Shown in pieces: positions 133 through 21,305 of a DNA stretch of 39,278 bases (positions within the stretch are counted from its first letter, which is position 1; the number at the start of each line of letters is the position of its first letter). The stretch is from an uncultured Oscillospiraceae bacterium (lineage in GTDB: Bacteria > Bacillota > Clostridia > Oscillospirales > Oscillospiraceae): positions 1 through 39,278 of the forward strand of contig CANROF010000023.1 of the NCBI GenBank assembly GCA_947632155.1, read 5' to 3'. Made by a program: the position numbers and the translations under genes. The notes beneath the pieces are model-generated. The model saw only the letters and a program-made list of their open reading frames with translations, searched no databases and had not been told where the DNA came from.

Positions 133-300
133 CCCGCGCGCGGGAGTGGCGGACGAAGCACCTGCCTCCGGCGTGAACAACGGCCGCGGCGCGCCTGGAC
201 GCGCGTCCGGACAAGCCGCAGTCTCGCCGCGCGCCGTCCCCTGCCGCGCATAACGGCGGGCGGCAAAAAAATAATGGAATCAAAAAAGGAGTGTAACAGC

Positions 301-3300
301 GTGAAAAAAGCATTATCCATTCTCCTGGCGCTGGCTATGGTCCTGGCGCTGGTTCCGGCAACGGTACTTGCCGCGGACAGCTTCACGGACATAGACAACG
401 CCTACGGCAAGGACGCCGTCCAGCGTTGGACGGCCGAGGGCGTCTTTGCCGGCTTCCCCGACGGGACCTTCAAGCCCGACGCCACGCTCCGGCGCGGCGA
501 GGCCATGGTGGTCTTCAATGCCCTCCTGCATCTGGAGGACGCGGCGGACCTCAGCGGCTTCACCGACATCCCCGAGGGGACCTGGTATTACGAGCCGGCC
601 GCCAAGGCCCTGGCCGCCGGGGTCTTCCTGGGCTATGGCGACGGCACCATGCAGCCGGAGAGGCCGGTTGACCGCCAGACCATCATCACCACCGTGGCCA
701 GCGCCCTGGGCATCCCCGGGGAGGACACCATCAACGAGAACAAATTTGAGGACTACGAGGCCTTCAAGGCCACCAACCCCTGGAGCCTCCGGGCCATCAA
801 CGCCATGTACAACCTTGGCGCTGTGGCGGGCGTCACCGAGGAGCGCCTGGCCCCCACCATGCTCTCCGCGCGCCAGCAGTTCGCCGTCATCCTGGACAAC
901 CTCATCGGCGCGTACATAACGAAGGACGGCAGCGGCAAGGAAATCTCCGGCAAGGACCAGAAGTTCACGCTGGTCGTGGCCAAGGACGTGAAGCTCACCG
1001 GCGCGTACAACGGCTTCCCCGTGGTGCTCTACGGCAAGGGCGGCAAGGTTGACATGAGCGGCGTCAGCGGTACCGCCAAGGTCAACGTGATGGTCCCCAA
1101 CGTCACCGTCACCGGCGCGGCCCCCGGCACCACGTTCATCCAGGGCGCCAACGGCGCCGGCCTGACCGTCAACGGGAGAAAGATCACTGACAAGACCTAT
1201 GTCGTTCCCGACCGGACCTCCGGCGGCTATACCCCCTCCGAGCCCGGCCCCAGCAACATAACCGTCACTTATCAGTATGAGAAAGACGGCACGACGGTCA
1301 CTATGGACACAGATACCAAACCCGCGGGCTCCGAGTTCGAAATCAAAGCTTTCCCGCAGGAAAATGTCCCCGAAAACAGCGAATTCGTTAGCTGGAAGGA
1401 TGCCAACGGCAACGCCTACGCCGCCGGGGAGAAATATACCTTTGATAGTTCCATTACCCTGACCGCTGACTTTATCGAGAAGAAGGACGTCCTCGCCAAC
1501 GCCATCAAGGGCGCTATGGACAAGTTCAACGATTACTTCAAGGACTTTGAGAGCCTGGGCGAAACGGATAAATCCGGCTACACCGCCAATCTTGATCCTC
1601 TTGCGTTCAGTGCAACCGAGTCCGGGACCGACAATGATACCCGCGAACAGCATATCAACTTCAAGGGCACCATCAGCACCAACTTTGCGAACAATATCGT
1701 TGTCGCCGCTTGCGAAATGGCCACCGTTATGCTCACGGAAAAGAAGCTGGATACCTCCGAGGCCAGGAAGCTCGTTGACGAGATTTTCGATGCGCTTGAG
1801 GGTCTTGACATCACCACCTTCCGTGACACCGAAGTGCTCAAGCAGCAGGTGACCGATGCGGTCAAGGCGGCCTCCGGCGAAGTCGCCACGGGCTTCAAGG
1901 CAGCCAACGGCGGCAGCTACTGCTTCGGCACCGCCAAAGTCAAGGTCAACGGCAGCGGCGAGTACACCATCACCGCCAACGGGGCCAGCGCCACGCTGAC
2001 CGGCGCCGAGCGCAACGCGGCGATCAAGGATCTGGCTGTTGCCATCGCCAAGGAGCTCTACAGCGGGCTTGATGATTACACCACGAAATACGCGGAAGAG
2101 GTGAAGCTCACCGCCATGGTGAACGTGACGTTTGACGGCGTCGGCACCTCCAGCAATACCTATCCCACCAAGTACCCCTTTGTTGTCAACCTGACCCTGA
2201 ACGGCGGCGGAATCGTCAGCGCCAAGTGGGTCACGAGTACCCATACTGAGCACGGCGGCGAACTCCACATCAAGGTCAACGGCAAGGCGCTCGCCACCAA
2301 GTACGACAGCGCCGACGGTGCTACCAAGGTCATCAATGAGGCCATTGAGCAGATGAACGATTCTCTCGATAAAGTTGTAGGCGGAATGGTTGAGGAAAAT
2401 GGTCCGTTCAAGCCTCTGATCTCTTCGATTGAAAAGTTCGGAATTGAAACAGATGAAGATGGGAATCCGGAAAAGCAATCTGATGGTACCACGTATGTCA
2501 AGGGCGTACTGACAAAATGGCTTACGGCAAATCTTGCTAATGGCATTAACGGTACCCTTGCTTCAGGAACTACAGTAAATACCGAAATTGAAGAACTTGT
2601 AGATGCTGTTGCCAAGGCTGCTGCAGAGGAACTGGCAACAAAGTTGCGTGAGGAGTATGACAAAACAACAGGATTAGCCCATCAATTAATTGGCAGCGCA
2701 ATTTTGGTAGATTTTGTTCCTGTATTGTCGGAAGGTGATACGGTAAATCATGACGTTGCTGGCCTCGCCGGACTTCTGAAAAGTCTGCCGGATGGTACAA
2801 CAGTAGACTTGGATGTATCGACATTTGATAGTATTGAGAGTAGAGAGCTCAAGTTGTACATCTATTCTGTAATATGTGACACACTGAAAGATGCCTTTAA
2901 TGATCAAGACGGGTACCATGATTACGACTATACGGGACAAAATGGCCAAGCACTTACTAAAGGTGTTAAGGATATAATTGATAAAAAGCTTGAGGAACAA
3001 AAAATTACCAATATTTTTGACCTCCTTAAGAAGCTCACCAAGCTCAGCGGACTGGCGGACACTAAGCTTAAGGACATCGAGACGCTGGTAACGAATGAAA
3101 CCGTGAAGGGCGCTGTGGACAAGGCGATCACGGAGAAGCTCGACAACGCCGCCAGCAAGCTCCCCGAGGCCGTTGACAAGCTCACCGTGAAGTTCACCGT
3201 GGGCGACGATACCTACACCATCGACAGCACCGACTTCGACGCGCTCAAGAATCACACCAGCGGCTGGTCCAAGACCATTGCCGACATGATCGACAACGAG

Positions 3301-3432
3301 AACGGCAACAGCAATCTCTGCCTCAACAGCTTCGACGTCAAGGACGGCAACAAGGTGGAGGTCACCTACAACGGCAGGACCTTTGTCTTCTACCTCTGGC
3401 TGGACATGAACGGCAACGAGGCTGCCAACTAA
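301..3432 (+). CDS. Secreted SLH-domain surface protein
   Basis: This is a 1043-residue exported surface protein. I chose the GTG at 301 because AAAAGGAG (284-291) lies 9 nt before it and because it starts directly with a signal peptide (KK, then a hydrophobic run to VLAA near residue 25). An upstream ATG at 274 would overlap that ribosome site. Three SLH motifs follow (about 27-77, 86-138 and 150-205), recognisable by FxDI, YGDGTMQP and FPDGTFKP. SLH domains bind pyruvylated wall polysaccharide. Next come a small beta domain (about 207-305) that recurs at the end of the PilM/PilN-like protein at 8117, and a repeat of the Flg_new/InlB type (about 322-400). The rest is unrecognised, helix- and coil-rich, and its middle (nt about 2340-3030) is clearly richer in AT. 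It sits just before pilB, so a role at the pilus or wall interface is plausible but inferred. Confidence 0.85.
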   Translation: MKKALSILLALAMVLALVPATVLAADSFTDIDNAYGKDAVQRWTAEGVFAGFPDGTFKPDATLRRGEAMVVFNALLHLEDAADLSGFTDIPEGTWYYEPAAKALAAGVFLGYGDGTMQPERPVDRQTIITTVASALGIPGEDTINENKFEDYEAFKATNPWSLRAINAMYNLGAVAGVTEERLAPTMLSARQQFAVILDNLIGAYITKDGSGKEISGKDQKFTLVVAKDVKLTGAYNGFPVVLYGKGGKVDMSGVSGTAKVNVMVPNVTVTGAAPGTTFIQGANGAGLTVNGRKITDKTYVVPDRTSGGYTPSEPGPSNITVTYQYEKDGTTVTMDTDTKPAGSEFEIKAFPQENVPENSEFVSWKDANGNAYAAGEKYTFDSSITLTADFIEKKDVLANAIKGAMDKFNDYFKDFESLGETDKSGYTANLDPLAFSATESGTDNDTREQHINFKGTISTNFANNIVVAACEMATVMLTEKKLDTSEARKLVDEIFDALEGLDITTFRDTEVLKQQVTDAVKAASGEVATGFKAANGGSYCFGTAKVKVNGSGEYTITANGASATLTGAERNAAIKDLAVAIAKELYSGLDDYTTKYAEEVKLTAMVNVTFDGVGTSSNTYPTKYPFVVNLTLNGGGIVSAKWVTSTHTEHGGELHIKVNGKALATKYDSADGATKVINEAIEQMNDSLDKVVGGMVEENGPFKPLISSIEKFGIETDEDGNPEKQSDGTTYVKGVLTKWLTANLANGINGTLASGTTVNTEIEELVDAVAKAAAEELATKLREEYDKTTGLAHQLIGSAILVDFVPVLSEGDTVNHDVAGLAGLLKSLPDGTTVDLDVSTFDSIESRELKLYIYSVICDTLKDAFNDQDGYHDYDYTGQNGQALTKGVKDIIDKKLEEQKITNIFDLLKKLTKLSGLADTKLKDIETLVTNETVKGAVDKAITEKLDNAASKLPEAVDKLTVKFTVGDDTYTIDSTDFDALKNHTSGWSKTIADMIDNENGNSNLCLNSFDVKDGNKVEVTYNGRTFVFYLWLDMNGNEAAN

Positions 3433-3514: not shown

Positions 3515-5220
<1,706 letters not shown>

Positions 5221-5224
<4 letters not shown>

Positions 5225-6276
5225 CGGAGCTTGACGAACTCATCGCCCTGGCCAGGGCGCGGAACGCCTCCGACATCCACCTGACCGTGGGGCTTCCGCC
5301 GGTGCTGCGCATCGACGGGGCGCTCACCGACGTGGAGGACGCGCCGGTGGACGACGCCTTCGCCGACGCCGCGGCTCTGGCCCTGGCGCCCCGGGAGCAG
5401 ATGGAGATCTTCCGGCGGGACGGGGAGGCGGACATGGCCGTCACCGCGGCGGACACCCGCATCCGCGTGAACATCTTCCGCCAGCAGGGCCACACGGCCC
5501 TGGCCCTGCGGCTCCTGCCGCTGCGGGTCCCCACCGCCCGGGAGCTGCAGCTCCCCGACGTCCTGGTGCGTCAGGCGGAGAAGCCCAGGGGACTGGTGCT
5601 TATCACCGGGCCCACGGGCTCGGGAAAGACCTCGACCCTCGCGGCGCTGCTGGACCACATCAACCACACCGTCCGGCGGCACATCATCACCTTGGAAAAT
5701 CCCATCGAGTACGTCCACGAGCGCGACAGGTGCGTCATCAACCAGCGGGAGGTGGGCGCCGACACCGGCAGCTTCGCCGCGGGCCTGCGGGCCGCCCTGC
5801 GCCAGGACCCGGACGTCATCTTAGTGGGGGAGATGCGCGACCTGGAGACGATCCAGACCGCCATCACCGCCGCGGAGACAGGGCACCTGGTGTTCGGGAC
5901 GCTCCACACCAAGGGCGTGGCCAACACCGTGGACCGCGTGGTGGACGTGTTCCCCGCCCAGCAGCAGGAGCAGATACGGATGCTCTTGGCGGAGGTGCTG
6001 GAGTGCGTCATCGGACAGACGCTCCTGCCCCGGGTGGGCGGCGGGCGGCGGGCCGTGTTTGAGGTCATGGTGGGCACCCCCGCCGTGAAGAGCCTCATCC
6101 GGCAGAACAAGAGCTACCAGCTCGTCACCTCCATCCAGACCGGCCGGAAGCAGGGGATGATCCTTTTGGACGACGCCCTGGCGGCCATGGCCCGGCAGGG
6201 GGAGATCACGCTGGAGGACGCCCTTTCCGCGGCCAATGACCCGGACGCGGTGGCGGGCGCCCAGAGGAAGCAGTAA
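5221..6276 (+). CDS. pilT: PilT-type pilus retraction ATPase
   Basis: This 351-residue hexameric ATPase drives pilus disassembly and retraction (twitching). Walker A is GPTGSGKTS from G130. Typical PilT features follow: an ENPIEYVH Asp-box region, RQDPDVILVGEMRD (Walker B), and AAETGHLVFGTLHT (His box). The C-terminal helical part is present and the length is normal for the family (about 345). It lacks the PilB zinc cysteines, which separates it from the preceding gene. It overlaps pilB by 4 nt and is followed by pilC after 10 nt. Its presence implies a retractile pilus rather than a simple type II secretion pseudopilus. Confidence 0.95.
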
Positions 6277-6286
6277 GGAGCGGCCC

Positions 6287-7507
6287 ATGCCAGTTTACGT
6301 CTATACCGCCGTCAACACCACCGGAAAGCGCGTCAGCGCCTCCATCGAGGCCGCCAGCCCTGAGCTGGCCCGCCACTCCCTCCGGGAGGAGGGCTACACC
6401 GTCTACGAGGTCCGCCCCCAGGGCGTGATGGAAAAGGACTTCAACATCCCGTTTCTGGGCAGGCCCCACGCCAAGGAGATGGCCATCTTCTGCCGGCAGT
6501 TCTCCTCCATCCTCCGGGCCGGCGTCCCCGTGGCAACGGTGCTGGAGATGATGGAGCAGCAGGTGGAGAACAAGCAGCTCCGCCACGCGGTCTTTGAGAT
6601 GAAGGGCGACGTGGAAAAGGGCGACACCCTGGCCGCCGCCATGGGCCGCCACAGGCGGATCTTCCCCCCGATGCTGGTGAGCATGATCGCCGCCGGCGAG
6701 GAATCCGGGAACCTGGAGGACGTCTTCCACCAGATGGAGGTCTACTTCGAAAAGGCCCGGAAGACCCGGAGCTCCGTGACCAAGACCATGATCTACCCCT
6801 GCGTGCTGCTTGTGGTGATGATCGCCGTGCTCATCGTGATGATGACCTTCATCGTCCCCATGTTCACGGAGACGTTCGCCTCCACGGGCACGGAGCTGCC
6901 CGCCATCACCCGCGCGGTGGTGAATTTCAGCTCCTGGATGGGAAAATGGTGGTGGCTGCTGCTCCTGGGCCTGGCGGCGCTTGTGGCGGCGCTTGTCGCC
7001 TTCGGAAGGACGAACCGCGGCCGGCACATTTTCGGCTTCCTCTCCCGCAAGACCCCCGTGCTGGGGAAGCTGGTGGTGCGGTCGGCCTGCGCCTCGCTGT
7101 GCAGGATGCTCTCGCTGCTGCTGGCCTCGGGCCTGACGCTTTTGGAGAGCCTGGACCTGGCGGCGGCCAACATGGCCAACGTCTATTTTGAGGAGGCGGT
7201 CCGCGCCGCCCGGGGCCAGGTGGCCGAGGGCTGGCCGCTGAACGTGGGCCTCCGGGACTGCGGCCTCTTCCCGCCGCTGGTCTACAACATGATCTCCGTG
7301 GGCGAGACGTCCGGCGACCTCCAGGGCTCGGCGGAGAAGCTGGCGGACTTTTACGACCAGGAGGTGTCGGACCAGACCTCCAAGCTCCTGGCCGTTTTGG
7401 AGCCGGCCATGATCCTCATCATGGCGGGATTCGTCATCGCCATCGTCTTCGCCATCTACCTGCCGATGCTGGGCATGACCCACGCTTATGATCAATACTT
7501 AAATTGA
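6287..7507 (+). CDS. pilC: PilC-type inner membrane platform protein
   Basis: This 406-residue polytopic membrane protein (GspF/PilC family) forms the platform on which PilB and PilT act. It has two GspF-like helical repeats (about 55-180 and 260-385), each with CRQFSSILRAGVP-like or CRMLSLLLASGLTL-like starts, and hydrophobic segments near 165-195, 215-240 and at the C-terminus (MILIMAGFVIAIVFAIYLP). I start it at the ATG at 6287 because AAGGAG lies at 6275-6280; an in-frame ATG at 6236 would run deep into pilT. It is the third gene of the pilBTC cassette. Confidence 0.93.
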   Translation: MPVYVYTAVNTTGKRVSASIEAASPELARHSLREEGYTVYEVRPQGVMEKDFNIPFLGRPHAKEMAIFCRQFSSILRAGVPVATVLEMMEQQVENKQLRHAVFEMKGDVEKGDTLAAAMGRHRRIFPPMLVSMIAAGEESGNLEDVFHQMEVYFEKARKTRSSVTKTMIYPCVLLVVMIAVLIVMMTFIVPMFTETFASTGTELPAITRAVVNFSSWMGKWWWLLLLGLAALVAALVAFGRTNRGRHIFGFLSRKTPVLGKLVVRSACASLCRMLSLLLASGLTLLESLDLAAANMANVYFEEAVRAARGQVAEGWPLNVGLRDCGLFPPLVYNMISVGETSGDLQGSAEKLADFYDQEVSDQTSKLLAVLEPAMILIMAGFVIAIVFAIYLPMLGMTHAYDQYLN

Positions 7508-7565: not shown

Positions 7566-8012
7566 ATGAAAATCGAAAAAAAGCTCAAGTCTCGTAAGGG
7601 CTTCACTCTCGTGGAGCTGGTTGTCGTCATCGCCGTCCTGGCCATTCTCGCCGGCGTGGGCGGAGCTGCGTATAGCGGATATATAACGAAGGCAAACGAG
7701 GCTGCTGATGTCAGCCAACTCGCGGCAATAAAGACAGCCGCTGATGCCGCTGCCGCTGCCGATGATAATCATTTTACGGTCGGAAAAATTGTTGTTACAG
7801 TGGATGAGTCTTCCGGTAATGCGTCGAGTATTAACATTACCGGCACTGATACTGGTGAAGAAATTAATATTACTTTGACCAATGGGAAAGCCCCCGATGG
7901 GACTGAGTTTGCCACATTCATGACGGGGAACACCGTAACGTTTAAGTCAGACGCTTATAAGAAGGGCGCAAATTGGACTACCGCTAACGGGTGGAAGAAG
8001 GGGACTACCTAA
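7566..8012 (+). CDS. Type IV prepilin, probable major pilin
   Basis: This 148-residue prepilin has a basic leader (KIEKKLKSRK), a class III cleavage site G12/F13, the FTLVE motif with Glu at mature position 5, and the hydrophobic alpha-1 helix (LVVVIAVLAILAGVGGAAYSGY). After processing by the PilD encoded downstream it would be about 136 residues, a usual size for a small Gram-positive pilin. The C-terminal half is a short, Thr/Asn-rich beta domain without cysteines. It has its own good ribosome site (AGGAAGG) 12 nt before the ATG and sits directly after pilC, the normal place for a major pilin. DNA after about 7680 is clearly more AT-rich than its neighbours. Confidence 0.9.
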   Translation: MKIEKKLKSRKGFTLVELVVVIAVLAILAGVGGAAYSGYITKANEAADVSQLAAIKTAADAAAAADDNHFTVGKIVVTVDESSGNASSINITGTDTGEEINITLTNGKAPDGTEFATFMTGNTVTFKSDAYKKGANWTTANGWKKGTT

Positions 8013-11100: not shown

Positions 11101-12145
11101 GACGCCCCCGGACACCCGCTATTACCTGACGGTGATTTTAGTCTATAACGAGAGCCTGCTCACCCATGAGCTGCCCCGCCAGGGGCTGGACCCGGACGGC
11201 CTTGTGCCGTTGCTGCGGCCCGACCACGTGGAGGCGCTGGACCGCTGGTCCCAGGCCGGGGTGTTCAGCGGCCGGGACGGCCAGCCCGACGGGGATGCGG
11301 AGCTCACCCGGGCGGACCTCATGGACATTTACGCGTCCCTCTTGGCGCTGGAGGAGGAGGCGGACGTCTCCGCCTACGACGACGTGCCCGCGGACGCGTG
11401 GTACGCCGCCTCCGTGGCGAAGTGCGTGGAGGCCGGCATCTTCTCCGGCTCCGGCGGGAAGCTCACGCCGGAGGAGCCGGTACAGCGGGAGATTTTGCTC
11501 TTCACCCTCTCCCGGGTGCTTGGGATACAGCCGCGCAACGAAACGCCGGTGGAATTTGAGGACGGCGGGGACATCTCCGGCTTTGCCCGGGGGTACATCA
11601 ACGCCCTCACGGACCTTGGCATCGTGGACGGCTATGACGGCGCGGCCCTGGCGCCCAAGGAGGTCGTGACTCTGGGCGAGGCGGCGGAGTATCTGGACCG
11701 CCTCCTGGGCCAGGTCATAACCGAGGACGGCGAGCACGCCATTTCGGACACGGAGAACCTGAAATTCACCCTAATCACCGCCAAAAACGCCTCTCTCACC
11801 GGCTTTTACAACGGCCGGCCCATCGTCCTGTGGTCCCGGGGCGGGACCGTGGACCTGGGCGGCGTTACCGGCGGGGCTATCCTGAACGTAATGGCCCCGG
11901 ACGTAAGCGTAGTCAACGCCGCGCCGGGCACGGTCGTCCGCGCCTCCGCCGCCGCGGAGAATTTGACGGTCAACGGCCAGGCCGTGGACCCGGGCGCCGA
12001 GTACACCGTCCCCGAGCCCGCCCCGGAGGGCGACGATACCCAGCAGCCCCCGGAGGGTGACGACGCCCAGCAGCCCCCGGAGGGTGACGATACCCAGCAG
12101 TCCCCGGATGGGGAGCCCGTGGAGGGCGGGGAGGTCGGGGAATGA
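8117..12145 (+). CDS. PilM-PilN-like fusion with SLH domains
   Basis: This 1342-residue protein appears to join pilus alignment parts that are normally separate. Residues 1 to about 345 resemble a PilM-type actin-like cytosolic domain. A single membrane helix lies near 355-380 (YGLFAAGAAALIGGVFAF), followed by a coiled coil (about 382-410) and a PilN-like extracellular alpha/beta domain (about 440-520, LPLLLEELEDVLPKNSSVTEIRI). Next are an unrecognised helical domain (540-775), about ten PGTD/PGTN repeats (nt 10446-10584), a second unrecognised region, three SLH motifs (about 1030-1206), and the same beta module as in the SLH protein at 301. It ends in three EGDDTQQPPE-like units (nt 12026-12115). 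The start is ATG 8117 with GAGGT 6 nt upstream. Its stop overlaps the PilO-like start (ATGA). The PilM and PilN assignments rest on position, topology and weak pattern similarity; the SLH call is firm. Confidence 0.8.
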   Translation: MRKKLSGKGLVILLDSAAMALEVTRLGSRRARAKERIVLDLAPGAVADGVIVDVPGVTELLRSTIEEKKLKGIRKAVFCLCSTQILMEEASISGVEPKWLGKMIATNRDLYFPVNTEEYQITYAKTGSQPDADGKPATQVRIWATPKELLRGYYQVANDCGLSVAAVDFCGNSFISAAQAAYSADRDRPRRGITLTGRARPKKAGDGDSQLPGDAAERPAEAGTELYLLAETDFLLLTFVSAGTTVMQRYLRRDGVFTGELEEARLAVALYNSAEGAPGGELRATLLGGMSTDGEYAEKLRRTLGLELRTPETPEGAESAADAAWYLCDGAALTTLNFGDPEMDKPKRYSVVSQVWQYGLFAAGAAALIGGVFAFSYPFSDKQAQLESLETTLRTKQNEFARSSDFSSNYSAYQDAYLGYLSDWRTVLGYYQYVTDEDGNITGRVYVPGILRSYNDNLPLLLEELEDVLPKNSSVTEIRIESGAMALQIASETKEDAANLLSDLRYNLTYSALYPGYITSLSQGQGVSVWDTGVSGALAQILAANEEPPTEGGVNTEDIEDYWPENVDREALEAALATLDPEQRPVIEAMIHRGPGAEYTQEELSVAADVAQGLDAGQRKLFASALGWEEGYGYTLSELLPEADFNLKREALENMLHNPMALYRFGTLALEDMGKTADPETGEVGSLLAAAYADDIVWLMINEDLDIYALMSDATMDDAQTIIAVFPLISRVPVDEDENVEATVNLIGTDPELSDYYAYYLAVALDYPRRDSSNPGPGTDPGTDPGTNPGTDPGTDPGTDPGTDPGTDPGTGTDPGTGTNPGGGFSGLLDKVLPYRWERDPETGLPINPETSRPLDPARDEDAFSQLLRKTMTDAGIDPRDIDWTKIDWYSNSENPKTYMNSLIEQVGLLWAQSQIGGLIPGGGELPSGGDRDNIINALRSLASGMGLDLDSLGIDLDSMSLEQLQSMLGSLGGSLPGGFDPGTLLPGGGSQEPETPPDTRYYLTVILVYNESLLTHELPRQGLDPDGLVPLLRPDHVEALDRWSQAGVFSGRDGQPDGDAELTRADLMDIYASLLALEEEADVSAYDDVPADAWYAASVAKCVEAGIFSGSGGKLTPEEPVQREILLFTLSRVLGIQPRNETPVEFEDGGDISGFARGYINALTDLGIVDGYDGAALAPKEVVTLGEAAEYLDRLLGQVITEDGEHAISDTENLKFTLITAKNASLTGFYNGRPIVLWSRGGTVDLGGVTGGAILNVMAPDVSVVNAAPGTVVRASAAAENLTVNGQAVDPGAEYTVPEPAPEGDDTQQPPEGDDAQQPPEGDDTQQSPDGEPVEGGEVGE
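10446..10584 (+). repeat. 12-bp repeats coding PGTD linker
   Basis: About ten 12-bp units encode Pro-Gly-Thr-Asp/Asn, with many synonymous changes between them. They form a flexible linker in the extracellular part of the PilM/PilN-SLH protein. The count could vary between strains and so change linker length through the cell wall. Confidence 0.85.
12026..12115 (+). repeat. Three 30-bp units at C-terminus of SLH fusion
   Basis: Three nearly identical 30-bp units encode EGDDTQQPPE-like decapeptides, acidic and Pro/Gln-rich, at the C-terminal end of the PilM/PilN-SLH protein. Confidence 0.8.
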
Positions 12146-12759
12146 AATTCCTGTCAAAATACTGGAAGGCCCTTGTGGCCATCCTCATGGCCGCGGCCTC
12201 CGTGCCGCTTTTCCTGAAGGCCCAAAGCCGGAGTGAGGAATATGACCGCCAGCAGCAGAACCTGAACACCTCCATCGCTGCCGTGCAGGCCGGAATAGAC
12301 GCCAACAGCAGCTACGCCGGCGTGCAGGGGGCCATCGACGGGGAGCTTGAGCGGCTGGACGCCAGCCGCCGGAGACTCTATGACCGCTTCCCCGCGGCGC
12401 TCCTGGAGGAGGACCAGATCCGGTACATCCTGTATCTGGAGGAGGTCTTCGGCGGGGAGATCAGCTTCGCCTTCGCCCAGGAAATGCCCGTGGCGACGCT
12501 CAGCGACGGCAATTACATCGGCGGCATGACCTTCACGCTGAACTACCAGACCACGTATCAGGGCTTCAAGGACCTGGTGACGTACCTGGCCTCCGACAGC
12601 CGCGTGGCCTCCGTCCGGGTGGCGACGCTGGACTATGTGCAGGAGCAGGACATCGCCGCCGGGACCATCACCCTGACGCTGTATACCGTCTCCGCCAACG
12701 AATACGAGCCGCCCGAGGCCTCGGAGCACGACACAGGCAAGGGCACCATCTTTGAGTGA
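12142..12759 (+). CDS. PilO-like pilus alignment protein
   Basis: This 205-residue protein has the PilO layout: a short cytoplasmic N-terminus, one membrane helix (about 9-26, WKALVAILMAAASVPLFL), a coiled coil (about 30-80, SEEYDRQQQNLNTSIAAVQ and on), and a C-terminal ferredoxin-like domain (about 110-185). PilO pairs with PilN outside the membrane to link the motor platform to the filament. It follows the PilN-like gene with a 4-nt overlap, which matches the usual pilM-N-O order. Sequence similarity is too weak to be decisive, so the call rests on topology and position. No pilP or secretin gene follows. Confidence 0.72.
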   Translation: MKFLSKYWKALVAILMAAASVPLFLKAQSRSEEYDRQQQNLNTSIAAVQAGIDANSSYAGVQGAIDGELERLDASRRRLYDRFPAALLEEDQIRYILYLEEVFGGEISFAFAQEMPVATLSDGNYIGGMTFTLNYQTTYQGFKDLVTYLASDSRVASVRVATLDYVQEQDIAAGTITLTLYTVSANEYEPPEASEHDTGKGTIFE

Positions 12760-12766
12760 GGCCGTC

Positions 12767-13177
12767 ATGAAAAGGAAGATTTTCGGAAATAAAGGGGGCT
12801 TTACCTTGGTGGAGGTGGTGGCCGCCATGGTGGTGCTGGCCATCATCGCTGCCCCCGTGGGCGGGGCCCTGGCCGTGTCCTGGCGCGTCAACGCCTACGC
12901 CGACCGGGTCATGCAGGCGCGCCTGGACGTCTCCACCGCCGCCGAGACGCTGATGGCGAAAGGGATAGACGTCGATAAAATTAATGCAGACAACTACTAC
13001 ACGGAAAGTTTCCCCGGTTCTGAAAAAGTTATAATTCAGGCTAAGTCCGTTACTGAATCTGGCTTAGTAAACAACCTTTACGAAGTCACCATAACCAGCA
13101 ATACCTTAAATTCCGTTAGCGTGACCACACATATTCGCGCCATGGGCGTGGGCGACGGGGAGGGGAGTGGGACATGA
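12767..13177 (+). CDS. Minor prepilin, GspI/PilV-like
   Basis: This 136-residue prepilin has the leader MKRKIFGNKG, cleavage G11/F12, FTLVE with Glu5, and the helix VVAAMVVLAIIAAPVGGALAV. I favour the ATG at 12767 over the in-frame TTG at 12752, which lies inside the pilO-like gene; the TGAGG just upstream is a modest ribosome site. FTLVEVVAAMVVLAI resembles GspI/PilV minor pilins. The middle of the gene (about 12960-13130) is AT-rich. It ends overlapping the next ORF by 4 nt. Confidence 0.82.
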   Translation: MKRKIFGNKGGFTLVEVVAAMVVLAIIAAPVGGALAVSWRVNAYADRVMQARLDVSTAAETLMAKGIDVDKINADNYYTESFPGSEKVIIQAKSVTESGLVNNLYEVTITSNTLNSVSVTTHIRAMGVGDGEGSGT

Positions 13178-13701
13178 GGCTTATAAAAAAGCTCCGTTCC
13201 CGCGGCGGCTACGCCATGGTGTACGTGGTGGTGGCCATGACGCTGATGCTTGCCGTGGTGGGCGGCATCACCGCCACCGCCGCCCGGAACCTCCAGACCC
13301 AGCAGTCCGCCGTCTCCATGATGGTGGACCGGTACGAAGCCGCGGGGGCGGTGGAGGCGAAGTTTGCCGAGATTGCAAAAATCGAAACCGCACCAATTGA
13401 AAGCACGGAAAGCGAATTTGATCCTGAGAGTATGTTACCGTTAGTTTTTGAGAACTTAAATTATATTATTTATTACGGCGATGACGTCAACCGCAGTTTC
13501 ACCGCTAAAATCGAAGGAGGAAGCGATAACACCACTATCACCGCATACATTTTAGTGAGGTACACAGTGACATCAACCGGCGGGACAGAGTCCACCCCGG
13601 CCGCTGATCCGCCGGAGGACCCGAAATACACCTACACCGTTACCGTCACCTCCGTGGAATATCAATCCTATAACGTGGAATACAAGGGGGCGGGGACATG
13701 A
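13174..13701 (+). CDS. Minor pilin-like protein, GspK/PilX-like, without Glu5
   Basis: This 175-residue protein has a leader MRLIKKLRSRGG followed by YAMVYVVVAMTLMLAVVGGITATAA. The G12/Y13 junction fits prepilin peptidase, but mature position 5 is Tyr rather than Glu. The known tip pseudopilin GspK and some PilX-like minor pilins also lack Glu5, which fits a filament-tip role. The C-terminal domain is Thr- and Ser-rich and partly AT-rich (about 13375-13560). It overlaps the previous and next genes by 4 nt each, so it is one unit of a translationally coupled minor-pilin operon. Confidence 0.75.
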   Translation: MRLIKKLRSRGGYAMVYVVVAMTLMLAVVGGITATAARNLQTQQSAVSMMVDRYEAAGAVEAKFAEIAKIETAPIESTESEFDPESMLPLVFENLNYIIYYGDDVNRSFTAKIEGGSDNTTITAYILVRYTVTSTGGTESTPAADPPEDPKYTYTVTVTSVEYQSYNVEYKGAGT

Positions 13702-14663
13702 GGAGCGCGCGGCGGGGATTTACCCTTGTGGAAATGGTCGTGGCGCTGGCGGCCTCGTCCATCGTGGTGCTTGCCGGGACGACCCTGGTGCTGCTGACCC
13801 TCCGGGTCCAGAGCCAAGCCTACGCCGACGTCTCCCGCCAGGACACCGCCCGCGTGGCCCTGACCATGGTGGAGACGCTGGCGGAGCAGGGCAAGCTGGA
13901 CGTCAACGCGGTGGATGACAACGGAATTGATGGCGTTCTCTACACCAGCGGGAGCAACATCTGCATCGGGGGCGGGACAGTCCTCATGACCAAAGCGGCG
14001 CTTTCTGCCGATACCCACGGCGACCGGCTCCTGACGTTGACGCTCACCGACAACGAAAGCTACGAGACATATTCCACCACCGTCTTCTGCCGCAACTGGC
14101 CCCGCCAGCCGGGGCCGTATCTGTTGAACAAGACGGAGATTTTCGCCGATTTTACGCTGCCGGAAGAGGTAATAAGTGCCCGCTACAAGCTCCTGAAAAC
14201 CGCCGTGGGGCAGTTTGGAAGCAAAGGAGAAATCAAGGGGGAAGCCCCTGAAACTACGTTCGCAGAGTGGTACAACACAACTTGGACCCCAGAAACCAAC
14301 CCGGCCTGGTGCGCGTGCTTCGTGTCCTGGTGTATAGAGAAGAATCGAGAAAGCATCCATGGGTATGACCCGACAACATATCGTCTTGGAACTGTTGCTG
14401 CCTGGACGGCGTTGATTGATCCGGACGCTTCACCTACTCCCGGCGACGTTATTATCTTTAACTTTAACAATGACGAAGACACACAGGCGGACCATGTCGG
14501 GTTAGTTTTGCGGGTGGATGGAGACACACTTTACACCGTGGAGGGCAACAACAACGACGAGGTCGTTATCGCACAATACGATAAAACAGCAGACGCAGAC
14601 ATAATCCTTGGCTATGTCGAGCTGCCATGGGATAACTCGGCGGGCACTGTGACCGGAAGTTGA
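13698..14663 (+). CDS. Minor prepilin fused to CHAP hydrolase domain
   Basis: This 321-residue protein starts as a GspJ-like minor prepilin: MRSARRG/FTLVEMVVALAAS with cleavage at G7/F8 and Glu5. Residues to about 150 look like a pilin body. Residues about 160-312 form a CHAP domain (NlpC/P60-like amidase or endopeptidase acting on peptidoglycan). Supporting motifs are AWCACFVSWC with the likely nucleophile C205, a TPGDVIIFNF strand, DHVGLV with H266, and TVEGNNN with E282/N284 as the third catalytic position. All catalytic positions look intact. Gram-positive CHAP enzymes usually carry signal peptides and wall-binding domains instead. Its DNA is AT-richer from about 14200. It overlaps its neighbours in a 4-nt style and lies just before pilD. 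Confidence 0.85.
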   Translation: MRSARRGFTLVEMVVALAASSIVVLAGTTLVLLTLRVQSQAYADVSRQDTARVALTMVETLAEQGKLDVNAVDDNGIDGVLYTSGSNICIGGGTVLMTKAALSADTHGDRLLTLTLTDNESYETYSTTVFCRNWPRQPGPYLLNKTEIFADFTLPEEVISARYKLLKTAVGQFGSKGEIKGEAPETTFAEWYNTTWTPETNPAWCACFVSWCIEKNRESIHGYDPTTYRLGTVAAWTALIDPDASPTPGDVIIFNFNNDEDTQADHVGLVLRVDGDTLYTVEGNNNDEVVIAQYDKTADADIILGYVELPWDNSAGTVTGS

Positions 14664-14665
14664 CT

Positions 14666-15439
14666 ATGTTCTACATCAAACTCTACCTCGCCCTCCTCTT
14701 TTTCGCGTTTGGGGCGGTGCTGGGCTCGTTCCTCAACTGCGCCGCCATGCGCTATGCCGCCGGGGAGAAGCTGCCCCGGGGGCGCTCCCGGTGCCCCAAA
14801 TGCGGCCGGACCCTGGGGGCGGGGGAGCTGGTGCCTGTTTTCAGTTGGCTCCTGCTGCGGGGACGCTGCCGGGGCTGTCACGAAAAAATCTCCCCGCGCT
14901 ACCCGCTGACGGAGCTCATCGGCGGCGGGGCGTACATGGCGGCGTATCTGCGCTTTGGTCTGAGCCTTTACACGGCGGAGCTGGCGGCGCTGCTGGCGGT
15001 TTTGCTGCTGCTGGCGCTCATCGACTACGACACCATGACACTCCCCGGCCCGCCCATGCTGGCCGCGCTCATTGCCTGGGCGGCGTTCCTCCCCACCCAC
15101 GCGGACCTGAAGACCCGGGCGGTGGAGGGCATTCTCACCGCCGCCGCGGTCTTCGCGGTCATCCTGGCCCTGTCCCTTGTGATGGACAAACTTTTGAAGC
15201 GGGAATCCCTGGGGGGCGGGGATCTGAAGCTCCTGGCGCTGGCGGCGCTGTATCTGGGCCCCTGGGGGACGCTGCTGATGCTCATCGTGAGCTGCGCCCT
15301 GGCCCTCCTGTTCGCCGCCGTCACGGGCGCCCGGGAGAGGGCCTTTCCCTTTGGCCCCTCCATCTGCGCCGGAACGGCCCTGACGCTCCTCTTCGGGGGA
15401 CCGGTGATAGGGTGGTACACGGGGCTGTTGAGCATTTGA
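14666..15439 (+). CDS. pilD: Prepilin peptidase and N-methyltransferase
   Basis: This 257-residue membrane aspartic protease cleaves prepilin leaders and methylates the new N-terminus. The N-terminal cytoplasmic domain keeps the zinc-type tetracysteine (C43, C46, C68, C71). The catalytic aspartates are seen in LIDYDTMTLP (D120 region) and GGGDLKL (D186). About seven hydrophobic segments follow. GGAAG at 14655-14659 supports the ATG at 14666 over the TTG at 14660. It is the last gene before a terminator-like hairpin and should process all five prepilin-like proteins of the locus. Confidence 0.93.
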   Translation: MFYIKLYLALLFFAFGAVLGSFLNCAAMRYAAGEKLPRGRSRCPKCGRTLGAGELVPVFSWLLLRGRCRGCHEKISPRYPLTELIGGGAYMAAYLRFGLSLYTAELAALLAVLLLLALIDYDTMTLPGPPMLAALIAWAAFLPTHADLKTRAVEGILTAAAVFAVILALSLVMDKLLKRESLGGGDLKLLALAALYLGPWGTLLMLIVSCALALLFAAVTGARERAFPFGPSICAGTALTLLFGGPVIGWYTGLLSI

Positions 15440-15513: not shown

Positions 15514-16644
15514 ATGAAATTCTTCAAACTTCCCGACGCGCTCAACCGCAGGACCGAGGCCCGAAAACGGAAAAAACCCGTCTTGGGCTTTACCCTGGTT
15601 GAGCTGGTGATCGTCATCGCCGTCTTAGCCATCCTCTCCGGCGTCGGCGTACTGGGGTACAGCGGGTACATCGAGTACGCCAAACGCGCCGCCGATGAGG
15701 AGCTGATCTCCGCCGTCAACACCGCCTTCGCCGCCGCATGTGAAGAAAACGGGGTGGAACGCATGAGCTTGCGTATAGACGAAGCGAAGCTCGATACCAG
15801 TAATCAGCCCGCAATTAAAGGTATTCTTTCTGTTGCTGGGTTGGAGGGAGATGCATTAACGACTTTTCAGACATCTTTTAGCGACTACTTTGATGGCAAC
15901 GAGACGACTGAACTGGAAGCAATACCTATTAATGATATTCATTTCGCTAACGGAGTTTTTATTGCAGATGAGGCTACGTTGGAGGGTGCGCGGACACAGC
16001 AAGCAATCGGAGATTTCAACAATTCAAATTACCACGATAACATTGAAGGACTTGTGCAAAACGTGGAGGGTGTCACCTCGCTTTTCAGCATGGTTGTTGG
16101 AGCGAATGGTCTACTTGAGGATCGTCTCAGTTCATTGAACAGCATGGTAGATGTTCCCTCAACTGTGGAAGGACTCAAAAAACTCGGAATTACTGACGAC
16201 TCCTCCAGTACAGAGATTGCCAATGCAATGGTGCTGTATGTTGCTCAGGCCACGAGTGCTATGGAAGATACCTCCGTACTGATTGAAGACATCATGTCAG
16301 GAACATTGAACCAGAACAGAGGTCTTATGGAGCTTCCCATGATGATTGGGATGTATTCAGCCTATTACAATTCCAAATACGCTTCGGAACAGTTTAAGGA
16401 GGATTACTCGTCCGCTATGGAGAGCCCTTACGGAGTACTTATGCTTTTGATGAGTGGTGATATAGCCGGTGATTCAGGGTATACGGATTATAAGGATTAC
16501 GAGATGCGCGAAGACCTGGAGGGCTATCTGGGGGCTTTGAGACTGGTAGACCAGAACAAGGCTTCCGTGGACATTAAAGACCCGAATGCATTCTCTAATG
16601 ATGATTTTATGGCTCTCATAAAATCCGTCCTCGGTAGCACTTGA
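15514..16644 (+). CDS. Large type IV prepilin-like protein
   Basis: This 376-residue protein has a long basic leader (MKFFKLPDALNRRTEARKRKK, cleavage G25/F26), FTLVE with Glu5, and a helix LVIVIAVLAILSGVGVLGYSGYIEYAKRAADE very like that of the pilin at 7566. The mature protein (about 351 residues) is far larger than a usual pilin, and its C-terminal 290 residues are mostly helical and unrecognised. TAAGGAG at 15499-15505 precedes the ATG by 8 nt. It lies behind a terminator, so it is probably expressed separately. DNA after about 15750 is strikingly AT-rich compared with its first 200 bp. It could be a second filament subunit or an adhesin-like pilin. Confidence 0.82.
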   Translation: MKFFKLPDALNRRTEARKRKKPVLGFTLVELVIVIAVLAILSGVGVLGYSGYIEYAKRAADEELISAVNTAFAAACEENGVERMSLRIDEAKLDTSNQPAIKGILSVAGLEGDALTTFQTSFSDYFDGNETTELEAIPINDIHFANGVFIADEATLEGARTQQAIGDFNNSNYHDNIEGLVQNVEGVTSLFSMVVGANGLLEDRLSSLNSMVDVPSTVEGLKKLGITDDSSSTEIANAMVLYVAQATSAMEDTSVLIEDIMSGTLNQNRGLMELPMMIGMYSAYYNSKYASEQFKEDYSSAMESPYGVLMLLMSGDIAGDSGYTDYKDYEMREDLEGYLGALRLVDQNKASVDIKDPNAFSNDDFMALIKSVLGST

Positions 16645-16681
16645 GAGGATACAAGTAGTGATACAAGGGGACGGTTCTTTT

Positions 16682-16824
16682 TGATACAAGGGGACGGTTC
16701 TTTTGTATCATTGAGCACAACTGAAATAACATAATTCCAACGCCCTACCGGCGTTTTAGAAAACCGAATCGGAAAAGCTCGCAAGGGCCAGGTACGCGCA
16801 AGGCAATACCTGGCCCTCGTCCAT
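16682..16824. repeat. 143-bp three-hairpin repeat, copy A
   Basis: This copy contains TGATACAA (16682-16689) with TTGTATCA (16703-16710), AACGCC (16739-16744) with GGCGTT (16750-16755), and GGGCCAGGTA (16785-16794) with TACCTGGCCC (16807-16816). A partial copy of its first 22 bp precedes it at 16659-16680. The GGGGACGGTTCTTTTGTATC core resembles palindromic intergenic repeats of Firmicutes that are often linked to REP-associated transposases; no such transposase is in the window. Confidence 0.85.
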
Positions 16825-16849
16825 TCCCCGTAGCGCCCCCGGCGAATCG

Positions 16850-16992
16850 TGATACAAGGGGACGGTTCTTTTGTATCATTGAGCACAACTGAAATAACAT
16901 AATTCCAACGCCCTACCGGCGTTATAGAAAACCGAATCGGAGAATCTCGCAAGGGCCAGGTACGCGCAATGCTATACCTGGCCCTCGTCCAT
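16850..16992. repeat. 143-bp three-hairpin repeat, copy B
   Basis: This direct copy of 16682-16824 differs at 5 of 143 positions, and all five differences lie outside the three stems. The spacing between copies is 168 bp. The rest of 16993-17192 holds no gene that I can support. Confidence 0.85.
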
Positions 16993-17192
16993 CACCCTGT
17001 TAAAAAATTCCTTGAATCTGCTCCGGGCCGTTGTAAAGATGTCTTCCGTCAAGCCCCGAGGCACTGACCGGTCATCCAACGGACTTGCGCATCCTCGTAT
17101 GCGGAAAGTACTCCTCCACGGAACAGAACACCGAAAACGTAAAATTCACCTCGTTTGCCCGCCCCCGACTACTGTTTGACTACTATTTTCGA

Positions 17193-17235
17193 AAAACCTC
17201 CAAATCCCTTGCGCCGCAACGGGTTTGGAGGTTTT
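17193..17235. terminator. Strong bidirectional hairpin
   Basis: AAAACCTCCAAA (17193-17204) pairs perfectly with TTTGGAGGTTTT (17224-17235), with three further CCC/GGG pairs inside. T-rich ends on both strands make it terminator-like. No gene in the window clearly ends into it, so it may belong to a lost element. Confidence 0.5.
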
Positions 17236-18700: not shown

Positions 18701-19663
18701 TTGAAAAATACATCCCGAAAGCGCGCCGCCGTCTGGGCGGCGCTGGCCATAGCGCTTTTGCTCTGTCCCTCCCGGGCCGCCGCGGCGCCCGCGGGCGTGC
18801 GGCTCAACTGCTCGCCGGTGGCGGAGAGCATGGAGCTGGAGACTTACCGGGGCGTCAGCGTCACCGGGAGCTTCAAATGTCTGGACCCGGAGGGCGACGC
18901 CGTCACCTACTCCGTCACCAAGGCGCCCAAAAAGGGCACCGTCACCGTGGACGGCGACGAATTCACCTACACCCCCGGGGAGGGCAAGAAAGGAAAGGAC
19001 ACCTTCACCTACGCCGCCGTGGACACCGCCGGGAACGTCTCAAACTCCGCCACGGTGACGGTGAACATCAAAAAGCAGAAGACCGCCGTGGTCTATAAGG
19101 ACATGGCGGGCAGTCCCGCCTGGTACGCCGCCACGGCGTTGGCCGAGAGGGGCATATTCGTCGGGGAGTGCGTGGGCGGCGAGTACCTGTTCCGCCCCGA
19201 ACGGCCGGTGACCCGGGGCGAATTCCTCGTCATGTGCATGAAGGCCGTGGGCGCGCCCATTATGGAGGGCATCACCCGCACGGGCTTTTCCAACGACGAC
19301 CGCATCCCCGACTGGCAGAAGCCCTACGTCACCACGGCCGTGACCTCCGACATCATCCGGGGCGGCGTCAGCCGCGAGGGCCTGCCGGTCTTTTCGCCCG
19401 ACACCGCCGTGACCTTTGCCGAGGCCTCGGTGATACTCAATAACGCCCTGGGGATAACGGACGTGTATATCGAGGACGGCGCGTCCGGCGCCTGGGCGGC
19501 CCAGGCCAGCGCGAATTTGTCCTCCTGCGGGATAATCCGGGACACCGCCGCCGGAGTCTCCGCCCTCGGCGTCACCCGCGGGGACGCGGCGATCATGCTC
19601 AGGCGCGCCATGGATATAGCGGAAAGCCGCACCCGCGACTCCCTCCTGGGCTGGGCGAAATAA
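18701..19663 (+). CDS. Secreted Ig-like and SLH-domain protein
   Basis: This 320-residue exported wall protein starts at TTG 18701, 8 nt after a very strong AAAAGGAGG (18684-18692). A signal peptide covers residues 1 to about 28 (basic head, AVWAALAIALLLC, then AAAA). An Ig/cadherin-like tandem-repeat domain (about 34-127) contains DPEGDAVTYSV, GTVTVDGDEFTYTP and GKDTFTYAAVD. Three SLH motifs follow (about 133-310: FVGECVGGEYLFRPERPVTR, IIRGGVSREGLPVFSPD, and a weaker third). It would bind the secondary wall polymer and expose or space the Ig domain. It is monocistronic, with a terminator behind it. Confidence 0.85.
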   Translation: MKNTSRKRAAVWAALAIALLLCPSRAAAAPAGVRLNCSPVAESMELETYRGVSVTGSFKCLDPEGDAVTYSVTKAPKKGTVTVDGDEFTYTPGEGKKGKDTFTYAAVDTAGNVSNSATVTVNIKKQKTAVVYKDMAGSPAWYAATALAERGIFVGECVGGEYLFRPERPVTRGEFLVMCMKAVGAPIMEGITRTGFSNDDRIPDWQKPYVTTAVTSDIIRGGVSREGLPVFSPDTAVTFAEASVILNNALGITDVYIEDGASGAWAAQASANLSSCGIIRDTAAGVSALGVTRGDAAIMLRRAMDIAESRTRDSLLGWAK

Positions 19664-20093: not shown

Positions 20094-21257
20094 CACGGCA
20101 ACAGCATTTACTTTTCTGGGAACACAACCCTTCGCAGGACATCATTATCCATTGCGGCACGGTACATCTTCCGGCGGAGGCTGACTCGCTTGCCCATGTC
20201 TGCTTTGCTCAGAAGCGCCAACGCTTGTTTGCGGAGAATATTCAGGTTCAGCGGGGAATTATCTTTCCGCGCCCTGGCTCCGTCCTCCCCAAACGTCACA
20301 TCCAACTGCCAGTGAAGCTGGTTTTCGATGCTCCAATGCTTTCGCACCGCATCCGCGAACTTATGTACATCGGTATGAGACGTCAAAAAATAGCGGCTTT
20401 CCTCGGTATATTCTCCCGTCTTGAGGCTGGTAACGGACGTCTTGACCATCCCAATCCCCTTAAGTCCAGCCCAATCCTTCCGCTGCGCGAGCCAATCAAT
20501 CCCGGTTTCCAGGTAATACTCCCTCTGCTCTATCCGCCCATGGTCCTTCTCAAGGCTTTTGTCACTGTTCTTCGCAATCTCACTTTCAAAATACAGCCTT
20601 ACGTCAGACATCAGGGCCGGCTGGTTGCCTTTCAATCCCAGCACATAATCCGCGCCCTTCTCCCGTATCTTCGCGGCGATCTGCTTCTGGCACCCCATGG
20701 CGTCCACCGTCACTGTGCTGCCTTCAATGTCAAGCATATCTATCAGCTCCGGTATCGCGGTGATCTCGTTACTTTTCGCCTCCGTGGCCAACTGCCCCAG
20801 GGTCATCTGTCGCTCCGCCACCCACGCGCTCACCACGTGGTAGGCGCTGTGTTTTTCATTCCCGCTCCCGCGTATGGTCTTCCCGTCTATTGCCACGGTA
20901 CTGCCCGTGACATCCGTAAGCTCCCCCAGGACTTCTCCCATTTCTTTCGGGTCGATTCGTTCAAAAACCCGGCGGAACGTGTCGCTGTCCGGTATCCCGT
21001 TGGGCAGTTCGAGGTATTGCTTGAACCAATCGAGCTTCCCGTACCCCGTGTCCTCCATGTGCTCGAAATCCGTCCCGCCGCAGATGACGGACACAAGGCC
21101 GATGAACACGATATCCACCAGTTTATGCCTCAGATTCCCCCATTGCCTGCGAGTATCCGTTATCTTTTCCAGCTTCTCAATGATCTTTTCCATGTCAACC
21201 TTCACCTCAGTTGACATAATAGCATAAAGGGGCGGAAAAGTAAATGCTGTTGCCGTG
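20094..21257 (-). mobile_element. Intact ISAs1-family insertion sequence
   Basis: The 1164-bp element is bounded by 23-bp perfect inverted repeats (20094-20116 and 21235-21257) that start CACGGCAACAGCATTTAC. It carries one transposase. The flanks show a 10-bp direct repeat TTATGGAGCG (20084-20093 and 21258-21267), the target duplication. Perfect ends and duplication point to a recent insertion. Confidence 0.95.
20108..21193 (-). CDS. ISAs1-family DDE transposase
   Basis: This 361-residue transposase cuts and inserts the element by DDE chemistry. Family signatures are ITDTRRQWGNLRHKLVDIVFIGLVSVICG at the N-terminus, VAIDGKTIRGS (first catalytic Asp), VTVDAMGCQKQIA (second Asp), and HWSIENQLHWQLDVTFGED (Glu region). 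The reading frame is open far beyond the element, to 21277, so the start must lie inside it. I chose the ATG at 21193 because it follows GAGGTGAAGG; an ATG at 21217 is the alternative. Near-full family length suggests an active gene. Confidence 0.95.
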   Translation of the reverse strand: MEKIIEKLEKITDTRRQWGNLRHKLVDIVFIGLVSVICGGTDFEHMEDTGYGKLDWFKQYLELPNGIPDSDTFRRVFERIDPKEMGEVLGELTDVTGSTVAIDGKTIRGSGNEKHSAYHVVSAWVAERQMTLGQLATEAKSNEITAIPELIDMLDIEGSTVTVDAMGCQKQIAAKIREKGADYVLGLKGNQPALMSDVRLYFESEIAKNSDKSLEKDHGRIEQREYYLETGIDWLAQRKDWAGLKGIGMVKTSVTSLKTGEYTEESRYFLTSHTDVHKFADAVRKHWSIENQLHWQLDVTFGEDGARARKDNSPLNLNILRKQALALLSKADMGKRVSLRRKMYRAAMDNDVLRRVVFPEK

Positions 21258-21267
21258 TTATGGAGCG
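21258..21267. repeat. Right target-site duplication of the IS
   Basis: TTATGGAGCG directly abuts the right inverted repeat and ends 9 bp before the -35 box of the signalling operon. Confidence 0.9.
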
Positions 21268-21276
21268 GCAAAGGCA

Positions 21277-21305
21277 TTGACAGGGGGGGTGGATTATGGT
21301 AAAAT
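21277..21305 (+). promoter_or_regulatory. Promoter of the c-di-GMP signalling operon
   Basis: TTGACA (21277-21282), a 17-bp spacer and TAAAAT (21300-21305) lie 53 nt before the response regulator start. The spacer begins with a run of seven G (21283-21289). It lies just outside the insertion sequence. Confidence 0.75.

Follow-up and report, generated by a model that had tools for sequence, protein, structure and literature searches.

The passage of type IV pili (T4P) through the wall of monoderm bacteria is called open both in a 2019 review (PMC6916266) and in a 2026 paper on LytF (PMC13192262), and the passages of the literature on which we draw here and below describe two systems that come close to the one at issue. 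The first is that of the modular pilins, defined by a pilin motif plus an extra C-terminal domain that is not T4P-specific; InterPro holds 264 such architectures, and predicted S74 and M26 peptidase grafts are named in the main text of the paper describing them (PMC8179133). The second is LytF, a competence CHAP hydrolase of Streptococcus sanguinis that promotes pilus exit across the wall: i) the ratio of extracellular to intracellular competence pilin with LytF is three times the ratio without it; ii) the catalytic Cys of LytF is needed for efficient transformation; and iii) external supply of the enzyme is no substitute (PMC13192262). Here we describe a gene that joins a pilin to a CHAP domain within a T4P operon, at positions 13698 to 14663 of a stretch of 39,278 nucleotides from an uncultured Oscillospiraceae bacterium (contig CANROF010000023.1, positions 1 to 39,278, forward strand, assembly GCA_947632155.1; hereafter the window).

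The encoded protein fits the modular-pilin definition of PMC8179133, and we give an about even chance to the proposal that, as a modular minor pilin, it would use its hydrolase to open the cell's own wall for pilus exit. Modular pilins are already known; the CHAP wall-hydrolase graft is apparently a new addition, in that no description of a pilin with a wall hydrolase was found in the open full-text literature, as represented by titles, starts of abstracts, and passages, although a database may list one. The words "CHAP" and "hydrolase" do not occur in the main text of PMC8179133, whose separate Dataset S1 may list CHAP, nor does the word "peptidoglycan" occur in the passages of PMC10191384.

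The fused protein and its predicted active site

The features of the gene are as follows; counts out of 15 refer to an alignment of all full-length copies found, the window's included.

13698..14663, plus strand: pilin-CHAP fusion gene, 321 amino acids, a single open reading frame from ATG at 13698 to TGA at 14661-14663; Pfam N_methyl and CHAP above cut-off
13698..13718, plus strand: prepilin leader MRSARRG, cleavage expected after Gly7; N_methyl at residues 2-26; Gly7 invariant in 15/15
13719..14093, plus strand: pilin module, residues 8-132; AlphaFold2 models (low to moderate confidence) give a long helix at 10-63 and beta strands within 80-130
14094..14174, plus strand: variable linker, about residues 133-159; low mean pairwise identity in the 15-copy alignment
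14175..14639, plus strand: CHAP module of NlpC-P60 fold, about residues 160-314; Pfam CHAP at 201-284, structural matches at 154-314
14310..14312, plus strand: predicted catalytic Cys205, invariant in 15/15
14493..14495, plus strand: predicted catalytic His266, invariant in 15/15
14541..14549, plus strand: Glu282-Gly283-Asn284, predicted third active-site position; Gly283 and Asn284 in 15/15, Glu282 in 14/15 with one Asp

A preliminary description, drawn from the sequence alone, had placed a prepilin N-terminus and a CHAP domain in one protein with Cys205, His266, Glu282, and Asn284 all in place, and in this it was right: the N_methyl match (E 5.5e-7, 29.3 bits, cut-off 21.2) and the CHAP match (E 7.1e-11, 42.9 bits, cut-off 26) lie in the single frame, and all four residues are present, Cys205 within WCACF and His266 within DHVG, followed by Glu282-Gly283-Asn284. 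The catalytic role of the Cys, the His, and the polar third residue is one that we assume from CHAP families. The prepilin site reads MRSARRG/FTLVE (Gly7, Phe8, Glu12), and NCBIfam likewise returns the prepilin motif TIGR02532, together with a TIGR02594 match at residues 166-297 that falls below cut-off. The helix and strands present in both AlphaFold2 models are the layout of a type IV pilin (mean predicted local distance difference test score of the pilin-only model, 73.0), and by structure search the CHAP region has a wall-hydrolase fold resembling peptidoglycan endopeptidases and phage lysins, with Ly7917 and LysK structures among the matches. A single-sequence search of the PDB with the fusion protein gave no match, and a profile search gave weak matches, to wall hydrolases and pilins.

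The same description had called the prepilin N-terminus "GspJ-like", and that label is not supported: the protein scores 12.2 bits on the NCBIfam gspJ model (cut-off 64.85), and no pilin is among the matches listed when the low to moderate confidence model of the pilin module is compared with the PDB by Foldseek and VIA-align.

Across the 15 copies, Trp204, Cys205, His266, Gly268, Gly283, and Asn284 of the CHAP module are invariant, as are Gly7 and Glu12 of the prepilin site and Cys131 and Arg132 of the pilin head. Identity averaged over pairs is 0.34 in the pilin module, 0.17 in linker residues 134-159, and 0.43 in CHAP, the CHAP module being the more alike of the two modules in 94 of 105 pairs. 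Loss of the catalytic Cys or His in relatives, which the preliminary description had named as one result that would tell against it, is not seen in any of the 15 fused copies, and the conservation of the predicted active site looks like the pattern of an enzyme in use. These residues also bear on the suggestion that the CHAP module is a non-cutting adhesin or anchor, one that holds on to the wall or to some other ligand. Those grafts of modular pilins that have a described role do bind ligands (PMC8179133), but Cys205, His266, and Asn284 are invariant in 15/15 copies (P=0.002 for all three if the 21 invariant positions among 152 fell at random, a rough measure), and we regard a binder that does not cut as improbable.

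Distribution and descent of the fusion

The full-length fusion was found as 15 copies in 14 genomes of five genera, all in one family, with identity down to about 30%. These genome searches were aimed at the pilin-CHAP fusion, pilins joined to other hydrolases being outside their scope. A search of 149 related genomes with query P0001 matched both ends in one open frame inside the genus only, and when the 34 genus genomes were searched with a profile of nine copies, 8 proved to carry the fusion at full length, in nine copies, G020 having two on separate contigs. The genus genomes whose PilC shares 59% identity or more with that of the window are these same 8; the other genus PilCs listed are 24-32% identical. 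Outside the genus, a sample of 400 family genomes contains nine PilCs at 52-60% identity, and six of these nine genomes, from four genera, hold the full fusion (G620, G630, G560, G707, G718, and G754); of the remaining three, two (G619 and G074) have an unfused pilin, with no CHAP, and G629 has no match (its PilC contig is 3.8 kb). Overall, at least 9/400 family genomes and at least 2/391 class genomes contain the full-length fusion, both of the latter from the window's own genus; these counts are lower bounds because at most five candidates per genome were scored; both sets are samples, and the class profile was built from genus copies only. A contig scan of named genomes gave 7 loci, all matching the pilin end only, and among the CHAP frames examined a prepilin start was confined to the known fusions, apart from one motif match far inside a protein (L062).

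The neighborhood is conserved on the upstream side, where a PilV-like gene is present in 13 of the 14 other copies (the G718 locus is too short to show it) and a PilX-like gene in 10 of 14, whereas the downstream genes vary and PilD and the second pilin switch place. N_methyl exceeds its cut-off in seven of eight further fused copies scanned (L195 scores 20.6 bits), and so does CHAP (L191, at 23.1 bits, is below). The preliminary description had thought the fusion unlikely to be an accident and had asked whether it is conserved in related genomes; it is present in further genomes and genera, the three predicted active-site residues unchanged, and because 14 genomes of five genera hold the full-length version we conclude that it is no accident. 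The window does come from a many-contig assembly, but chance or an assembly artefact, with a pilin gene joined to an unrelated hydrolase in one genome, is refuted by 14 genomes with the same fusion, the same gene neighbors, and a single CHAP clade, leaving it a negligible probability. In G020, contigs 70 and 59 (L040, L041) carry two diverged minor-pilin blocks with a different CHAP pilin in each, reflecting either duplication or mixed strains.

The unfused pilins of G619, G662, and G602 stop 5 to 9 residues past Cys131-Arg132, marking the border between modules, and that of G074 ends at the same place without this Cys. In G619, which lacks the CHAP graft, the genes that follow (L216, from 1994 on) look by eye like ones for a SipW-type signal peptidase and for a small secreted protein. 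In an unrooted tree, the 15 CHAP domains of the fusions group in a single clade relative to 85 others picked by the fusion's own profile (bootstrap 99, not fully settled; Shimodaira-Hasegawa-like approximate likelihood ratio test 100). These data are fitted best by a single ancient fusion that was then inherited and lost in some lineages; many independent fusions do not fit. An origin of the fused CHAP among CHAP proteins with KT-rich N-termini, which we take to be mobile-element-like, was considered and rejected: such proteins are among the best-scoring relatives, yet the fused clade lies outside that set.

The unfused relatives also bear on whether the prepilin segment might be simply a membrane anchor, holding a hydrolase that thins the wall from inside at assembly sites and enters the filament little. 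Processed pilins do reside in the membrane before assembly (PMC8179133), and PilD is encoded next door; but the pilin head is conserved and not the helix alone (Cys131 and Arg132 in 15/15 fused copies, with the caveat that the unfused pilin of G074 lacks the Cys), and the same head occurs without CHAP at the same gene place, as expected of a true pilus subunit. We therefore think a mere anchor distinctly unlikely.

The pilus operon and its host

The fusion is the third and last minor-pilin-like gene of a pilus operon of type IVa, whose extension ATPase, platform protein, and prepilin peptidase have T2SSE, T2SSF, and A24 peptidase matches above Pfam cut-off and whose PilT is above its NCBIfam cut-off:

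3515..5224, plus strand: PilB-type extension ATPase; T2SSE E 4.8e-134, MshEN; best NCBIfam model PilB at 538.6 bits, below cut-off 675.65
5221..6276, plus strand: PilT retraction ATPase; TIGR01420 at 438 bits, cut-off 319.1
6236..7507, plus strand: PilC-type platform protein; T2SSF E 2.7e-61
7566..8012, plus strand: PilA1, pilin of major-pilin type; N_methyl 33.9 bits
8117..12145, plus strand: PilM/PilN-like fusion with SLH tail, 1342 amino acids; SLH exceeds its cut-off, whereas the PilN (E 1.2e-3) and PilM_2 (E 0.038) matches fall short of theirs
12142..12759, plus strand: PilO-like protein, named by place; no Pfam match, homologues at the same place
12752..13177, plus strand: minor pilin in PilV/GspI position; N_methyl 29.8 bits
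13174..13701, plus strand: minor pilin-like protein in PilX position with non-canonical GYAMVYVV start; no Pfam N_methyl; homologue adjoins the fusion in 10/14 other copies
14660..15439, plus strand: PilD prepilin peptidase; A24_N_bact and Peptidase_A24 above cut-off
15514..16644, plus strand: PilA2, a second, larger pilin of 376 amino acids; N_methyl 26.6 bits

The translational coupling noted in the preliminary description is borne out by the overlap of the fusion ATG (13698-13700) with the TGA of the upstream gene (13699-13701); at the other end, pilD starts either with a TTG at 14660, which the fusion stop overlaps, or with an ATG at 14666, 2 bases beyond that stop. The PilM/PilN-like fusion has a long Pro-Gly-Thr-Asp repeat linker with SLH domains near its outer end, and this tail might anchor the base of the pilus in the wall; SLH anchoring as a general feature was rejected, SLH being present in two of six proteins scanned (those of the window and G017) and not in the other four. 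Two more SLH-domain proteins flank the operon (274-3432 and 18701-19663). Just behind the second pilin gene, 16658-16997 holds two direct 148-nt copies (95% alike, spacing 168) and three 24-nt copies, followed at 17193-17235 by a 21-nt inverted repeat (90% complementary, arms 1 nt apart) and at 20108-21277 by a DDE transposase (DDE_Tnp_1 and an associated domain). In a shorter stretch of G630, which has the CHAP pilin, the only PilT match overlaps PilB. Elsewhere in the window's genome (G000 contig 11, 39568-42255; L126, L156), a further pair of genes, PilC-like (32% identical) and PilD-like (45%), probably belongs to a type IV filament system of its own.

The window's genome, searched as a whole, has neither an Omp85 nor a secretin match, with the controls giving matches in 7 and 6 of 14 genomes; the window encodes full-length SpoIVA, and the host is probably a spore-forming monoderm.

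The proposed target of the predicted hydrolase and comparison with known systems

Our proposal for the own wall runs as follows. The protein would be a minor type IV pilin bearing a CHAP-type peptidoglycan hydrolase on a variable linker at the outer end of its pilin head; PilD would remove the leader, and the pilin would join the membrane pool with its CHAP module facing the wall; because of the bulky head (an argument taken from PMC8179133), it would enter the pilus only at the tip or in the priming complex, together with the minor pilins of the two genes directly preceding its own; and from the tip CHAP would cut the cell's own thick peptidoglycan locally, making a pore for the growing pilus. 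That this amounts to a self-drilling pilus, with the hydrolase on the leading subunit and cutting only where and when the pilus is pushed out, we put at somewhat less than an even chance.

We wish to stress that several observations weigh against this proposal: i) the pilin lacks CHAP in G619 and G074, whose pilus is of the same type, and also in G602 and G662, where PilC is more distant (44 and 42% identical), so that not all such pili need the hydrolase; ii) the fusion is present in 4 of the 18 family loci of one comparison, and six operons with PilC at 38-42% identity (G570, G723, G644, G751, G799, and G797) have minor pilins without CHAP; iii) the G620 copy is strongly diverged, more so than any other, with CHAP at 23.1 bits, below cut-off, and Cys207 replaced by Leu, although the Cys205, His266, and Asn284 positions are retained; iv) in G560 the sole PilT match lies inside PilB and none is seen between PilB and PilC, so that retraction may not be common to all fusion pili; v) no link of the pilin module to the GspJ tip subunit could be made; and vi) LytF is not essential for pili, and its homologues in other streptococci act differently (PMC13192262).

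The main rival, which we consider unlikely, is that a tip hydrolase attacks neighboring cells, by contact lysis for DNA release, competition, or predation in the manner of streptococcal fratricide. The tip of a pilus comes into contact with other cells; 30/34 genus genomes have ComEC, among them all 8 that carry the fusion, so that DNA uptake is possible; and the CHAP-bearing LytF frees DNA from susceptible oral streptococci (PMC13192262). But ComEC is nearly as common without the fusion (22/26) as with it (8/8), and we therefore reject a link of the fusion to competence; no immunity-type gene was recognized among the operon genes scanned; above Pfam cut-off the fusion protein has N_methyl and CHAP only, with neither extra repeats (Bsp as in LytF, choline-binding as in CbpD) nor a separate wall-binding module; and LytF, the pilus-tied CHAP enzyme of S. 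sanguinis, shows no sign of fratricide (PMC13192262). We rank the own wall above neighboring cells as the target, a choice that the sequence does not decide.

A conserved and apparently active hydrolase carried by the pilin itself is a candidate answer to how a pilus crosses the wall, and change of a single residue (Cys205) could separate pilus assembly from wall cutting. If true, a self-drilling pilus would provide a direct, genetically separable test of T4P passage through a thick wall, and would be, to our knowledge, the first T4P with a built-in wall-crossing enzyme; a wall-cutting graft would then join the modular pilins, among which the grafts with a described role bind ligands (PMC8179133).

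Among known systems, GspJ-type minor pilins are similar in belonging to a set of three minor pilins adjoining PilD, but the fusion scores far below the gspJ cut-off. Phage endolysins and CHAP-type tail lysozymes (the Ly7917 and LysK structures) share the fold, and a tail lysozyme is likewise a hydrolase on a wall-crossing device, but these are phage proteins lacking a pilin module. The modular pilins PilB and PilC of S. sanguinis resemble the fusion in having a class III signal peptide, a small pilin module, and a linker-joined general-purpose domain, in belonging to a monoderm T4P, and in a tip location argued from architecture (PMC8179133); their grafts, however, are adhesive (vWA, lectin), whereas that of the fusion is a predicted wall hydrolase. 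LytF resembles the fusion in its CHAP hydrolase, the catalytic Cys of which is important to a function that depends on pili (PMC13192262), and differs in being a free secreted protein with Bsp repeats; in the fusion, CHAP belongs to a pilin, and the gene lies in the pilus operon. LytF of S. sanguinis is the strongest outside support for an enzyme acting on the cell's own wall, and the fusion would do the same job in cis.
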